Positions 10,200-14,282 of a stretch of DNA of 38,852 nt are shown here, piece after piece. The DNA comes from Bacteroidaceae bacterium (lineage in GTDB: Bacteria > Bacteroidota > Bacteroidia > Bacteroidales > Bacteroidaceae). The notes under the pieces were generated by a model. That model was not told the origin of the DNA and ran no database searches. It saw only the letters and a list, made by a program, of their open reading frames with translations. The stretch lies in contig JAFZVY010000021.1 of the NCBI GenBank assembly GCA_017617575.1, forward strand, positions 1 to 38,852. Reading direction: 5' to 3'. The first letter of the stretch is position 1; each line of letters begins with the position of its first letter. The translations under genes and the position numbers were made by a program.

Positions 10200-10457
10200 A
10201 TGACAGCAGTACAGTTGAATGCGGAGGTACTCCGTGCCATTAACGACATATCAGATGACGAAACCTTGATGAACAAGGTGCTTAAATACATAAAGAAGCT
10301 TACAGCAAAGAAGGAAGATCCAACGTTGATGACAAAGGAAGAATTCTTTGCCAAGATAGAGCGTGCTGAGCAACAGTATGCCAGAGGTGAATATACAACA
10401 CAGTTACCTGGGGAATCCGTATCTGATATGCTAAAAAGATGTGGTTATGAAGTATGA
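10200..10457 (+). CDS. Type II antitoxin of a YoeB/Txe-like pair
   Basis: An 85-residue, highly charged helical protein with no signal peptide. It begins MTAVQLNAEVLRAINDIS and carries the stretch LMTKEEFFAKIERAEQQYARG, common in Bacteroidales antitoxins coupled to YoeB-like toxins. Its C-terminus (ESVSDMLKRCGYEV) is likely the toxin-binding tail. It overlaps the toxin start, the standard arrangement for translationally coupled modules. By family, antitoxin and complex should repress the promoter; no operator palindrome was obvious by eye. Confidence 0.8.
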   Translation: MTAVQLNAEVLRAINDISDDETLMNKVLKYIKKLTAKKEDPTLMTKEEFFAKIERAEQQYARGEYTTQLPGESVSDMLKRCGYEV

Positions 10458-10722
10458 AATAAGATATACTCCAGAAGCCAATATTGGATTGGCAAAATTG
10501 GAGAAGTACGAGCCTAAAGCTTTTGCCAAGGCTATGCGTTTCCTCGAAGAACTTCGTGAGCATCCCAAAACTGGCACAGGACACCCAGAGCCTTTGAAAG
10601 GGAAACCCGAAGGACGCTGGAGTCGTGAAATAACAAAGAAGCATCGCTTGGTGTACCGAATACATGACGAAGAGGTTATTGTCCTCGTTCTTACCGCCTA
10701 TGGACATTATGATGACAAATAG
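10447..10722 (+). CDS. YoeB/Txe-family mRNA interferase toxin
   Basis: A 91-residue protein of the RelE/YoeB ribosome-dependent mRNA endonuclease superfamily. HPEPLKG (E48), WSREITKKHRLVYRI (R60, R67) and the C-terminal GHYDDK (H87, Y88) line up with the catalytic Glu, Arg and terminal His-Tyr of E. coli YoeB. I chose the ATG at 10447, overlapping the antitoxin stop by 11 bases; a GTG two codons upstream at 10441 is the alternative. The length is normal, all key residues are present, and the toxin looks intact. A strong hairpin terminator follows. Confidence 0.88.
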   Translation: MKYEIRYTPEANIGLAKLEKYEPKAFAKAMRFLEELREHPKTGTGHPEPLKGKPEGRWSREITKKHRLVYRIHDEEVIVLVLTAYGHYDDK

Positions 10723-10836: not shown

Positions 10837-11409
10837 TTATTGTCTCAATTTACCTTTATCTTCAAGATATTTAATGAACTTATTCCATTGGGCAGTACGT
10901 AGAATACGATTGTTTACTGTCAATTCTGCATCTGCAAATTGCTGTGGATAGCAGTCGAGCAGGAAGAAACCTACATCTGTCTTCTCATCACCTTCCAAAG
11001 TCCATTCGTAGTATAGAACAAGGTCGAAATAAGTACGTGAATCTGTTGGATTGACGAGATTGTCAACACAGAACAAAACTTCATCTCCCAGACGGAACTC
11101 GATACGGTCTAATGCGCTTAGTCGCTCGCTTATGACGTCAGATGAAATATTAAAACGAATCTCACGTGTGTTTACATTAAACCATTCTATTTCTTCTGAT
11201 GTAAGCACAGCTGTTTTTAAGTCAACAGAGCTTCTTGTCTCTGTTGTTACTGCATAAGCTGCAAGTTCGCCAAGGTTCTCCACTTGAGGTGTATTGTCAA
11301 TACCATCCTCCATAATACCATCTTCATTGTTGCAAGCTACAAAGAGCGTTGCAAGGCTGGTAATAGCTATCGCCATTAGCCAGATACTGTTCTTAATGTT
11401 CTTTTTCAT
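10837..11409 (-). CDS. Lipoprotein in the sigma-factor/barrel operon
   Basis: A 190-residue lipoprotein that I do not recognise as a named family. A basic N-terminus (MKKNIKN), a hydrophobic stretch and the lipobox LFVACN (Cys near residue 26) are followed by an acidic segment (NNEDGIMEDGIDN), as in surface-exported Bacteroidetes lipoproteins. The rest looks like a beta-rich globular domain. It is the last gene of the minus-strand operon, 68 bases after the sigma-region-4/barrel reading frame and without a promoter of its own that I can see. It could be a surface partner or ligand of the barrel, or simply a target gene. Confidence 0.7.
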   Translation of the reverse strand: MKKNIKNSIWLMAIAITSLATLFVACNNEDGIMEDGIDNTPQVENLGELAAYAVTTETRSSVDLKTAVLTSEEIEWFNVNTREIRFNISSDVISERLSALDRIEFRLGDEVLFCVDNLVNPTDSRTYFDLVLYYEWTLEGDEKTDVGFFLLDCYPQQFADAELTVNNRILRTAQWNKFIKYLEDKGKLRQ

Positions 11410-11477
11410 AACTACTCATACAATTTAATTGTGTCTTTACTCTATTAGTCTATAAAACATCAAAAAGACTGCATGTG

Positions 11478-12866
11478 TTACCACGTAAATCTTACACCCA
11501 GTGGTAGAGTTATTGTAAATGGATGTTCCGTGAAGTATGTCTCTATGCTACTATTTGTCGGAATGTTGTATTGCAGGTTTGGTTCTGCAAATATGCTTAT
11601 GTTTCGTGTGAAGTTGTATTGCACTCCCAGTCCTGTATTTACCGTCCATTGTAATGGCGTATGAATACTTGCCTTTTCTGTATCTGATAATTTATTATGT
11701 ATGTAATAATCCTTGTTGAGTGACGAATTAACAGGAATGTTCATAGTCACTCCCATGCTTCCATATATGCCCCATGTGTTTCGCTCGTACATATTGACGA
11801 AACCTTTCATTGGTATGCCAATGTAATGGATTCTCTGATGTTCTTGGATGATGTTGCCATCTGTTCCCAACTCGAAGTCTGAACATAAACGACTATAGTT
11901 CATTCCTGATTCCACACTAAATTGTTTACTTAGATTGTACTTCAATGCAAAAGACCATGTCGTTGGCATATAATGATGGCTTGCCCTTATAATCTTATCA
12001 TCTCCTGGTTGGTTTGCATTATTTAATGCAATCTTTACAACTACAATACGAGAACGCGAGCCTACATCCGTTGGTTGGTTTGCCAAATATATTGCATAAT
12101 CTCTCCAGTTGTCAAAAGAAACAGAAGATGGCTGCTCACCTGTTGGTGCTGTAGCTTGCTTTTCTGTTATGATATAAGGACGTTCTTGCCTTGTATCACC
12201 TAACCCTCCAGAATATGCAAGTCTAAGTGAGAGCCTATTCTTTTCATAATCGTTGAAAATGGCTTTTTGCTTAAACGATTCAGCAATGTTTTGTTTTGGA
12301 AGTTGAATCTTCTTTATTACATGAATCGTATTGAGTGACTCATTCTCACATGAGGAGTCTTGACTGATTGTGTCCGCTTCACTATTGTTGTTTATAGCGT
12401 TAACCGCAACTGTATCTTTTTCCTGCACAATTGCAGACCTTGAAGTACTTATTGTACTTGTCATGTACCTATGACTGTTTGGCCTCATCACTTGTAATTT
12501 GGAATGCTGTTCTTTGTGACTCTTTTCTTGTTTACTTGCAATTTTCTTCTTGTCCTTGGTGACTTCAGATTCTTTCTTAAGCAGAACAATTGTAAATGGA
12601 ACAAGTAGAATCAAGAGTATAGGGCTATACTTCATCATCATCTTTCGCAACATTTTCTTTGCTCTTGCGAGTTGGGATGATGACGAATGTGCTTCTATAC
12701 CTAATAAATTAGCGATTTCTTTGTGTGTCATGTCTTCAAAAACAGAAAGACGTAACACCTTACCATAGCCTTCGGGTAATTTCCCAATTAGTTTTATTAC
12801 CTCGCCAATTGGGATTCCCTTTATTTCTTTTTCATTGGATTCTTCTATCAAAGATTCTGCCACCAT
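11478..12866 (-). CDS. Sigma-70 region 4 fused to a membrane helix and an outer-membrane beta-barrel
   Basis: A 462-residue frame. Residues of about 18-76 are sigma-70 region 4: GEVIKLIGKLPEGYGKVL, then the helix-turn-helix MTHKEIANLLGIEAHSSSSQ and LARAKKMLRKM. Directly after comes one hydrophobic helix (about 81-96), then a Lys/Ser/Asn-rich, probably disordered linker (97-205). Residues of about 211-462 have alternating beta-strand pattern (LSLRLAYSGG, SVESGMNYSRL, WTVNTGLGVQYNF) and end TLPLGVRFTW, an outer-membrane barrel C-terminus. Region 2 lies just upstream in another frame, so this should be the second part of one sigma protein. The region-4 frame is open upstream to 12896, past the first ATG, which supports a frameshifted single gene. 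Predicted topology: DNA-binding part in the cytoplasm, linker in the periplasm, barrel in the outer membrane. Confidence 0.75.
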   Translation of the reverse strand: MVAESLIEESNEKEIKGIPIGEVIKLIGKLPEGYGKVLRLSVFEDMTHKEIANLLGIEAHSSSSQLARAKKMLRKMMMKYSPILLILLVPFTIVLLKKESEVTKDKKKIASKQEKSHKEQHSKLQVMRPNSHRYMTSTISTSRSAIVQEKDTVAVNAINNNSEADTISQDSSCENESLNTIHVIKKIQLPKQNIAESFKQKAIFNDYEKNRLSLRLAYSGGLGDTRQERPYIITEKQATAPTGEQPSSVSFDNWRDYAIYLANQPTDVGSRSRIVVVKIALNNANQPGDDKIIRASHHYMPTTWSFALKYNLSKQFSVESGMNYSRLCSDFELGTDGNIIQEHQRIHYIGIPMKGFVNMYERNTWGIYGSMGVTMNIPVNSSLNKDYYIHNKLSDTEKASIHTPLQWTVNTGLGVQYNFTRNISIFAEPNLQYNIPTNSSIETYFTEHPFTITLPLGVRFTW

Positions 12867-12874
12867 AGTTTCCT

Positions 12875-13156
12875 CTATGGAAGTGGCATGATGTTTTTAT
12901 GTTCTTCTTTATATTTATATGCGATATTCCTTGTTATGGACATCATCCATCCTTCAGCTTTGTCATTATCACGTAATTTGTCAAGGGAAGTGAAAATGAT
13001 GACAAAAGAATCATGTATTATGTCGTTTATGGCTTGCTCGTCGGAAATGTAACGTCGGCACACATTTCGCATCTTGCTTACGTTAGCATTATATAGTTCT
13101 CCGAGAGCATCAGCATCTCCTTGCCTACACCTTTCTATCAGTTCTGCTATCTCCAT
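12875..13156 (-). pseudogene. Sigma-70 (ECF) region 2, separated from region 4 by a frameshift
   Basis: A 93-residue frame beginning MEIAELIERCRQGDADALGEL, the classic ECF sigma start, followed by DEQAINDIIHDSFVIIFTSL and GWMMSITRNIAYKYKEEH, the core-binding and -10-recognition helices. It ends at TAG 12875-12877 just where region 4 should begin. Region 4 continues in the -1 frame. Between 12878 and 12896 both frames are open, and one extra base there (for example in the five-A run, 12894-12898) would join them into one protein of about 560 residues. It may be a true loss, a programmed frameshift or a sequencing indel. No TAnnTTTG box was seen in the roughly 100 bases upstream, so transcription may depend on another sigma factor or on itself. 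Confidence 0.75.
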
Positions 13157-13224
13157 CTTGATAATAATTGTTCTAATTATAGATGTACGATAATAACAAT
13201 AATGACTGCATGGGAAACGACATT

Positions 13225-13441
13225 ATTTTTGCAATCGTATGCAAAACTATACATTTACTCTCATGTACGCAAATATCTTGATGCGAAATATTGGAGAAAA
13301 AGGCATTGCCGAAGCGACACTCAAGTGTCTCCTCGCCGACTGTCGAATACCGTGTCTCAAACTAATGACAGTTTGTATAGCAGACTATTGATAGTCCGTT
13401 CGCAAACTATCGATAGTCTGAGCGACAAGAAACATGAATAG
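13225..13441. repeat. Long direct repeat, copy 1
   Basis: About 145 bases from 13225 recur from 14113 with only a few differences. Copy 1 then carries roughly 57 extra bases of palindromes, including CAAACT...AGTTTG, GACTAT-TG-ATAGTC and ACTATCGATAGT, before similarity resumes near the end. Within the shared part GACACT-CA-AGTGTC and CGAC-T-GTCG are also dyads. The plus strand has TATTTTTG (13224-13231), a possible -7 box, at its left edge. No open frame spans it. Confidence 0.75.
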
Positions 13442-13482: not shown

Positions 13483-13867
13483 GACTTCGCTATGACACCG
13501 AAGTGACTCCAAAGTGACACCACTATGGCTCTACTATTATAGCGGAGAAATAGTAGAGAATTAGCAGAGAAATAGTAGAGACACGAAGAAATCACTACGA
13601 ATGAGCAACGGAACATGAACGAAATGCGACCTGTACAGTTGAAAAGGTTCTTTCAGTTCTTCTGACTTACGTGTTAAGTGCACCTTAGGTTTACCTTAGG
13701 TTCTCCTTCGTTTCCCTTACCAACTGAAGGGACACCTAAGGCACACCTAAGGGGAAGGTAAGGGAAAAGGGTTGAAAATACGTCGCGAACGTACTCGTAG
13801 TACGTGGCGAGCGTACAACCAGTACGCTGGTGACGTACTGAAAGTACGTTCCCCGACGTACTTACTA
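13483..13867. repeat. Gene-free array of 35 consecutive 11-bp words in one register
   Basis: The whole stretch can be cut into 35 words of 11 bp without slipping. Thirteen words (13483-13625) follow themes such as GACACCNAAGT and AATAGTAGAGA. Five weaker ones follow (13626-13680). Then 17 (13681-13867) move from NACCTTAGGTT through CTAAGGNNNAN to alternating ACGNNGNGANC and GTACNNNNAGT. Adjacent words often form dyads, for example CGTACT-CGT-AGTACG and GCGTAC-AACCA-GTACGC. There is no coding potential. Bases 13868-13947 show nothing I can name. Confidence 0.7.
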
Positions 13868-14112: not shown

Positions 14113-14282
14113 ATTTTTGCAATCGTATGCAAAACTATACATTTACTCTCATGTACGCAAATATCTTGATGCGAAATATTGGAGAAAAAGGCATTGCCAA
14201 AGCGACACTCAAGTGTCTCCTCGCCGACTGTCGAATGCCGTGTCTCAACTAATGATAGTCCGAGAGACAAGATAACTGATGA
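14113..14282. repeat. Long direct repeat, copy 2
   Basis: Second copy of the 13225 repeat, 888 bases downstream. The first 144 bases are nearly identical (for example GCCAAAG for GCCGAAG). The block of extra palindromes in copy 1 is missing, and similarity resumes at a GATAGTCNGAG word. It ends next to the bidirectional terminator at 14283. Confidence 0.75.

Follow-up and report, generated by a model that had tools for sequence, protein, structure and literature searches.

Sigma factors joined to an outer-membrane barrel in the Bacteroidales: a Dma3-type family with a predicted local regulon

The Dma proteins are the closest described relatives of the system considered here. They consist of an anti-sigma domain, a membrane helix, a tether and an outer-membrane barrel, and the gene lies beside that of an ECF21 sigma factor (PMC13088901; the papers cited here were available in part, and our statements about them apply to those parts). 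Among the traits that characterise this family is the control, in cells, of vesicle formation as well as of a sigma factor. M0N98_03760-61, a two-gene relative in Phocaeicola vulgatus, responds to the envelope stress caused by an antibacterial toxin, and its sigma gene rises 33-fold; the same response includes the increase of three NigD orthologues and a longer O-antigen (PMC9308784). Dma3, from Bacteroides thetaiotaomicron, instead has a sigma domain of its own at the N-terminus. Very little is known about Dma3 so far, although dma1 and dma2 mutants show induction of its locus (bt_2778-2779; PMC13088901), and BT2778 is listed as a sigma-70 family factor (PMC10434189). IutY of Pseudomonas putida (ECF243), a fused sigma factor that is freed by Prc and RseP, is described as the only ECF sigma factor with such a fused regulator to have been studied experimentally (PMC8999054). 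ECF48, ECF52 and ECF53 of Actinobacteria also have a C-terminal membrane extension, but there it is an anti-sigma part of the zinc-finger type that has one or two helices, and the available part of the paper mentions no outer-membrane barrel (PMC8999054).

The gene studied here is found in a 38,852-nucleotide stretch of DNA from a Bacteroidaceae bacterium, referred to as the window, where it occupies positions 11478-13156 of the minus strand in two broken parts. ORF1 (12875..13156, minus strand), the first part, encodes 93 residues that include sigma region 2 (Sigma70_r2 at 12902-13096, minus strand; E 1.8e-9, over the Pfam cut-off) and stops at a TAG. ORF2 (11478..12866, minus strand), the second part, encodes 462 residues comprising region 4, a membrane helix, a linker and a barrel with the C-terminus RFTW; its frame is open for 472 codons, reaching 10 codons further upstream of the ORF2 start. 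Region 4 (Sigma70_r4_2; 12648..12803, minus strand) is matched with E 5e-11 and 46.9 bits versus a cut-off of 25.7. Directly after it comes a single membrane helix (12579..12635, minus strand; best 19-residue window, mean Kyte-Doolittle value 2.08), whose onset in the hydropathy profile is 12 residues past the SSSSQ motif of region 4. The periplasmic linker that follows (12237..12578, minus strand) is of low complexity and, judged from its composition, probably disordered. Its length is 114 residues if the barrel begins at RLSLRLAY, an onset placed by eye against the intact fusion L031; the barrel-start script found no start in window ORF2. The C-terminal outer-membrane beta-barrel region (11481..12236, minus strand) is assigned from OMP_b-brl and homology. 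The OMP_b-brl match in ORF2 (E 2.9e-5, 24.8 bits) is under the cut-off of 28.7, and in L031, a record from an uncultured Bacteroidales bacterium, two barrel families exceed the Pfam cut-off. Region 2, region 4, one helix, a linker of about 110 residues, a barrel ending in Trp and one frame break had been proposed in the sequence-only reading, and this observation is confirmed.

This order of parts is beyond chance, since the identical order is found as one open frame in many genomes. A profile made from alignment A1 of eight intact fusions, with four candidates scored per genome, gave at least 64 full-length, stop-free, one-frame matches in 58 of 301 genomes of the family. Full-length here means that the model was spanned from position 7 or before to position 560 or beyond with no stop, as counted from the match listing. 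At E <=1e-60, the profile had matches in 74 of the 301 genomes and in 16 of 30 genera. One-frame fusions were also found in the same genus by a search of 61 genomes with ORF2. Within this genus the distribution is patchy, because the gene is present in nine of 37 genomes by search and DNA reading, including the window's own genome and a broken copy in G021. Members occur in three further families of the order: among 393 order-level genomes, reading of the DNA gave intact fusions in G393, G257 (two), G401 and G413, a count outside the family that is a lower bound as three candidates were scored per genome. All eight intact fusions that were scanned match regions 2 and 4 as well as an outer-membrane barrel family in Pfam (E up to 0.01), and the fusion-sigma profile aligns to the solved chains of SigW, SigH and RpoE over positions 1-177 or less. 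Both regions that define an ECF sigma-70 factor, 2 and 4, are present in the intact fusions and in the two ORFs of the window. The C-terminus is Trp in 50 of 57 distinct fusion ORFs; these are 60 ORFs minus three truncated duplicates (L075, L078, L079), and they take in window ORF2, the broken G021 copy and two that are cut by contig ends. Thus, the intact homologues for which a search had been proposed do exist, and by their sequences sigma factor, helix, linker and barrel are joined in one protein. The objection that no relative carries sigma and barrel in one frame falls away, since the intact relatives are one protein. We also noted L123, L124 and L125, ORFs of 414-429 codons with a sigma part and a stretch holding a hydrophobic segment (by eye) but no barrel match; Pfam regions 2 and 4 are present in L123 and L124, and the three are sigma fusions of another type.

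The layout is real and widespread, and its kind is already known as Dma3. The sequence-only reading knew of no described system of this kind, but a description exists, because Dma3 has its own sigma domain (PMC13088901). In the fusions as in Dma3, a Dma-family protein has an N-terminal sigma domain and there is no separate sigma gene next to it, a likeness drawn from the available description of Dma3 and not from its sequence. A sigma domain and a Dma tail in one protein are found in the intact relatives, whereas the window copy differs from Dma3 in being broken. With the matches described above, the Dma3 layout gains a family that has at least 64 full-length members in one taxonomic family and extends to three others.

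The window copy has been recently broken or mis-assembled. Recent decay or an assembly error is indicated because the two parts are still close to the intact fusion L031: ORF1 is 67% identical to its region 2 over 88 aa, and ORF2 is 45% identical over 468 residues (blastp). The two ORFs are in different frames, and the switch is confined to the interval between the upstream stop in the ORF2 frame and the TAG of ORF1. We considered whether they could instead be two real, translationally coupled genes, which would make a split sigma factor from a region-2 protein and a region-4/helix/barrel protein. The start codon of ORF2 does lie 8 nt past the stop of ORF1 with AGGAA in between, and each ORF is open and conserved. 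Likewise, there is a single frame change located in a short overlap, as would be expected if the parts were joined by programmed ribosomal frameshifting. However, the at least 64 stop-free one-frame matches of the family search speak against both readings. Six other fusion copies are broken too, at scattered other places, as damage would give: G021 has an in-frame stop within region 2, the G568 and G571 copies are broken by stops, and those in G338, G095 and G494 have frame changes. Copies ending at contig ends (G645, G505, G497, G564) were left out of this count. None of the six is interrupted at the site of the window, which is a further point against frameshifting. With intact one-frame relatives and other copies damaged elsewhere, we reject both readings; a pair of split genes is highly improbable and frameshifting is barely conceivable. 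In the G571 copy (L161; G571:C16, minus strand), the in-frame stop comes after sigma region 4 but before the membrane helix and would yield a free sigma factor.

The fusions share the helix, the long tether, the C-terminal barrel and an ECF sigma factor with the pairs Dma1/Das1, Dma2/Das2 and M0N98_03760-61, but the pairs, as described in the available texts, consist of two proteins, and their anti-sigma factor starts with an anti-sigma domain. In a 150-residue scan, the helix was found 9-18 residues past the exact region-4 motif in 52 of the 57 distinct fusion ORFs, the exact motif being absent from the remaining five. With a looser motif and a scan restricted to 5-40 residues, it lies 9-20 residues past region 4 in 57 of 57. 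Because the helix comes immediately after region 4, there is no room for an anti-sigma domain in the fusions, and such a domain is probably absent between region 4 and the helix, judged by this spacing. In contrast to the fusions, the barrel proteins of the two-gene relatives have approximately 45-70 residues ahead of the helix, in which a W..L...M..Y...P..LW..I-like pattern is seen (both judged by eye); we take this N-terminal part to be the putative anti-sigma domain. Thus, of the features of the Dma family, the inner-membrane helix, disordered tether and C-terminal barrel are found in the fusions. The N-terminal anti-sigma domain is not, by spacing, and instead of a separate adjacent ECF21 sigma gene the relatives have the sigma factor as the N-terminal part of the same frame. 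Linkers measure 118.5 residues in the median, with 76% disorder-promoting residues, in the 52 of 57 rows with a script-found barrel start, which is plainly misplaced in at least two of them (L146, L177). For the fusions in general, the helix is called from hydropathy, disorder from composition, and the barrel from Pfam and homology. A short HYDIADLFPEK-like motif recurs just ahead of the barrel in otherwise disordered linkers (e.g., L139, L138, L114).

IutY resembles the fusions as an ECF sigma factor joined to a membrane-bound C-terminal regulator, but the fused part of IutY is an anti-sigma factor (PMC8999054, available part). By spacing, no such anti-sigma part is retained between the sigma factor and the helix of the fusions. 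IutY is not known to have a barrel within the same protein.

A promoter-like element is found upstream of the fusion genes. In the window, the predicted own promoter, TGCAGTCATT...CGTA (13186..13210, minus strand), lies 54 nt ahead of the start codon. The general layout is TGCAGTCTTT, about 12 variable bases and then GGAC, GTAC or ATC, mostly 53 nt before the start codon. TGCAGTC is present in 44 of 53 unique upstream stretches, compared with a mean of 0.13 after base shuffling and 0 after reversal; this set is without L162 and L163 (contig ends) and two stretches with repeated upstream DNA. A relaxed TGCAGTC-type element is found upstream of 62 of 68 fusion genes (reversed control 0), and the element as written is absent upstream in the other six. 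The 68 are the fusion ORFs with downstream DNA, two of which, in the window and in G021, are broken upstream of the frame. The element looks ancestral, since a related one, TGCA[AG][CT] plus a CATC-like second part, is found in 12 of 23 two-gene relatives (0.095 on average after shuffling, 0 after reversal), although this pattern was written after those sequences had been seen. We infer that the fused sigma factor reads the TGCAGTC-type element. Our first promoter pattern was discarded: it missed the second site in the window, and it gave 3 matches versus 3 in the reversed control in G000 and 3 versus 6 in G004.

That second site, TGCAGTCTTT...TAGAC (11448..11473, minus strand), lies just behind the fusion gene and ahead of a predicted lipoprotein gene of 190 aa (10837..11409, minus strand), a likely member of the regulon by its blastp relatives. 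In blastp, the lipoprotein matches 12 of the 13 other 140-215 aa proteins that are encoded after an element of this kind downstream of a fusion gene (E 8e-43 to 9e-26), whereas neither Pfam nor NCBIfam gives it a match, even at E up to 1. TGCAGTC.TT occurs within 110 nt past the stop in 43 of 68 fusions. Within 2 kb downstream it occurs in 50 of 68, at 57 sites, against 0 in the reversed control and 2 on the opposite strand, and the other 18 have no downstream element in that range. A start codon opening at least 120 codons follows 54-64 nt after 37 of the 57 sites. The gene that comes next usually encodes a lipoprotein, a radical SAM/SPASM enzyme or a methyltransferase. By short motifs, and within the limits set by the length of DNA at hand, radical SAM genes lie downstream of 31 of 68 fusions, methyltransferase genes of 17 and genes for LTD-motif proteins of 8, in addition to small lipoproteins. 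Pfam confirms the radical SAM with SPASM, methyltransferase, Gfo/Idh oxidoreductase and LTD/CotH assignments, with one or two examples of each scanned; the Gfo/Idh gene stands outside the motif census, where its motif matched nothing. At L249 and L250, the order is fusion, lipoprotein, radical SAM and Gfo/Idh-type oxidoreductase, and the element is present three times. A radical SAM partner was sought in the window's own genome, which is 86% complete, and one weak match of 26% was found.

These predicted downstream targets bear on whether the fusion could be mainly an autoregulated outer-membrane protein, with the sigma factor merely setting the dose of barrel. It is true that the most constant predicted target is the fusion gene itself (62 of 68). 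However, 50 of 68 fusions have a further element no more than 2 kb downstream, and enzyme genes recur behind the fusions; both points argue against this explanation, which we regard as improbable.

Genome-wide searches suggest that the predicted regulon is mostly local, because matches elsewhere are at the level of the control or mostly inside ORFs. The strict GGAC form has nine matches, in nine of 14 genomes; each of them is at a fusion gene, and the control has none. The relaxed GAC form has 36 matches in 17 genomes, 25 of them at the fusion locus and 11 elsewhere versus 11 in the control; the 10 of these distal matches that have a locus all sit inside ORFs. The ATC form has 24 matches in 12 of 15 genomes, 10 at the fusion locus and 14 elsewhere versus 3 in the control. 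Of the 14, 10 are inside ORFs of at least 150 codons, one is at a truncated fusion copy, and three remain (G439:C1, G566:C1:61571 and G655:C3). A wide regulon is thus rejected, and by these matches there may be a small distal one with few members. At L248 and L193 (G436:C34, near position 2083 of the contig), the element is followed by only the first 40 or so residues of the fusion gene; this copy is the third in its genome and is truncated.

We propose that the fusions are tethered, self-amplifying envelope-stress sigma factors with a local regulon, a reading to which we give a probability of about 0.7 and in which the signal and the proteolytic release are its inferred parts. The C-terminus of the sigma factor itself would anchor it in the inner membrane of cells with an intact copy, and the disordered tether would link the anchored sigma factor to the outer-membrane barrel. 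Such tethering presumably keeps the sigma factor idle. Damage to the outer membrane, or failed assembly of the barrel, would then probably lead to cleavage of the tether and helix and free the sigma domain. We base cleavage and release on the two-gene Dma systems and IutY. The free sigma factor would read TGCAGTC-type promoters, mostly at its own locus: the promoter before its own gene, giving positive feedback, and promoters ahead of the genes that follow, for instance the gene for the lipoprotein, radical SAM/SPASM or methyltransferase enzyme.

Alternatively, the sigma factor could be active while tethered, recruiting RNA polymerase to the membrane in the manner of the membrane-bound activators CadC and ToxR, with the barrel tuning its activity and no cleavage. 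In the intact relatives, both sigma regions (2 and 4) are complete, the helix is a direct continuation of the end of region 4, and promoter-like sites lie near the gene, all of which would suit activity at the membrane. However, a disordered tether of about 118 residues would fit a cleavable link, and IutY is activated by proteolysis (PMC8999054). We therefore consider activity in the tethered state unlikely.

A more specific form of the preferred, release-based reading can be put forward tentatively. In it, an envelope switch made of one protein would work with no anti-sigma domain at all. If the anchor and the barrel at the far end alone restrain the sigma factor, the state of the barrel would itself be the signal. 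Once freed, the sigma factor would fire two or three private promoters, one for its own gene and the others for the genes that follow, and the whole would be an autonomous, patchily distributed cassette for envelope modification. The likely rule of control is a tether lacking an anti-sigma domain, and the predicted output is concrete, namely a promoter-like element that is conserved and target genes in the immediate neighbourhood. With the family, the likely rule and the predicted output in hand, the crossing of both membranes by a signal in one protein becomes directly testable with a reporter. This implied rule and the local output seem to be what is new here. In the literature searched, the missing anti-sigma domain, the element and the local regulon are unreported, and a search with the element motif returned no Bacteroides paper among the matches listed. 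The founding Dma paper, reportedly that of Pardue et al. (PNAS, 2024), may contain some of this for Dma3.

Regarding descent, a tree of 53 fusion sigma parts and 23 two-gene sigma factors places 52 of the 53 fusions in one group (SH-aLRT 100), and the fusion sigma of G034 is placed among the sigma factors of the pairs. The window, L162, L163 and L008 were omitted from this tree, and the 23 two-gene relatives are 25 pairs minus L090 and L153, which are broken fusions. A single clade of fused sigmas is not rejected by the AU test (p 0.53). In the barrel tree, the last 210 residues of window ORF2 belong to a set of 33 rows, all fusions, with SH-aLRT 99; the fusions as a whole are not one group there, and the fusion label takes three changes. 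Given these changes and the position of the G034 sigma among the pairs, we do not regard a single origin of the fusions as proven. The sigma and barrel parts of the L003/L132 group are placed differently in the two trees, which suggests swapping of modules.

The surroundings of the gene in the window contain repeats and a toxin gene. Upstream of the fusion gene there is a 136-nt direct repeat (13225-13360 and 14113-14248; 99% identical). An inverted repeat at 13787-13851 has 30-nt arms that are 80% complementary and spaced by 5 nt. On the plus strand, positions 10200-10722 hold a YoeB-type toxin gene (PF06769, E 2.7e-15), and the small gene preceding it is probably that of the antitoxin.
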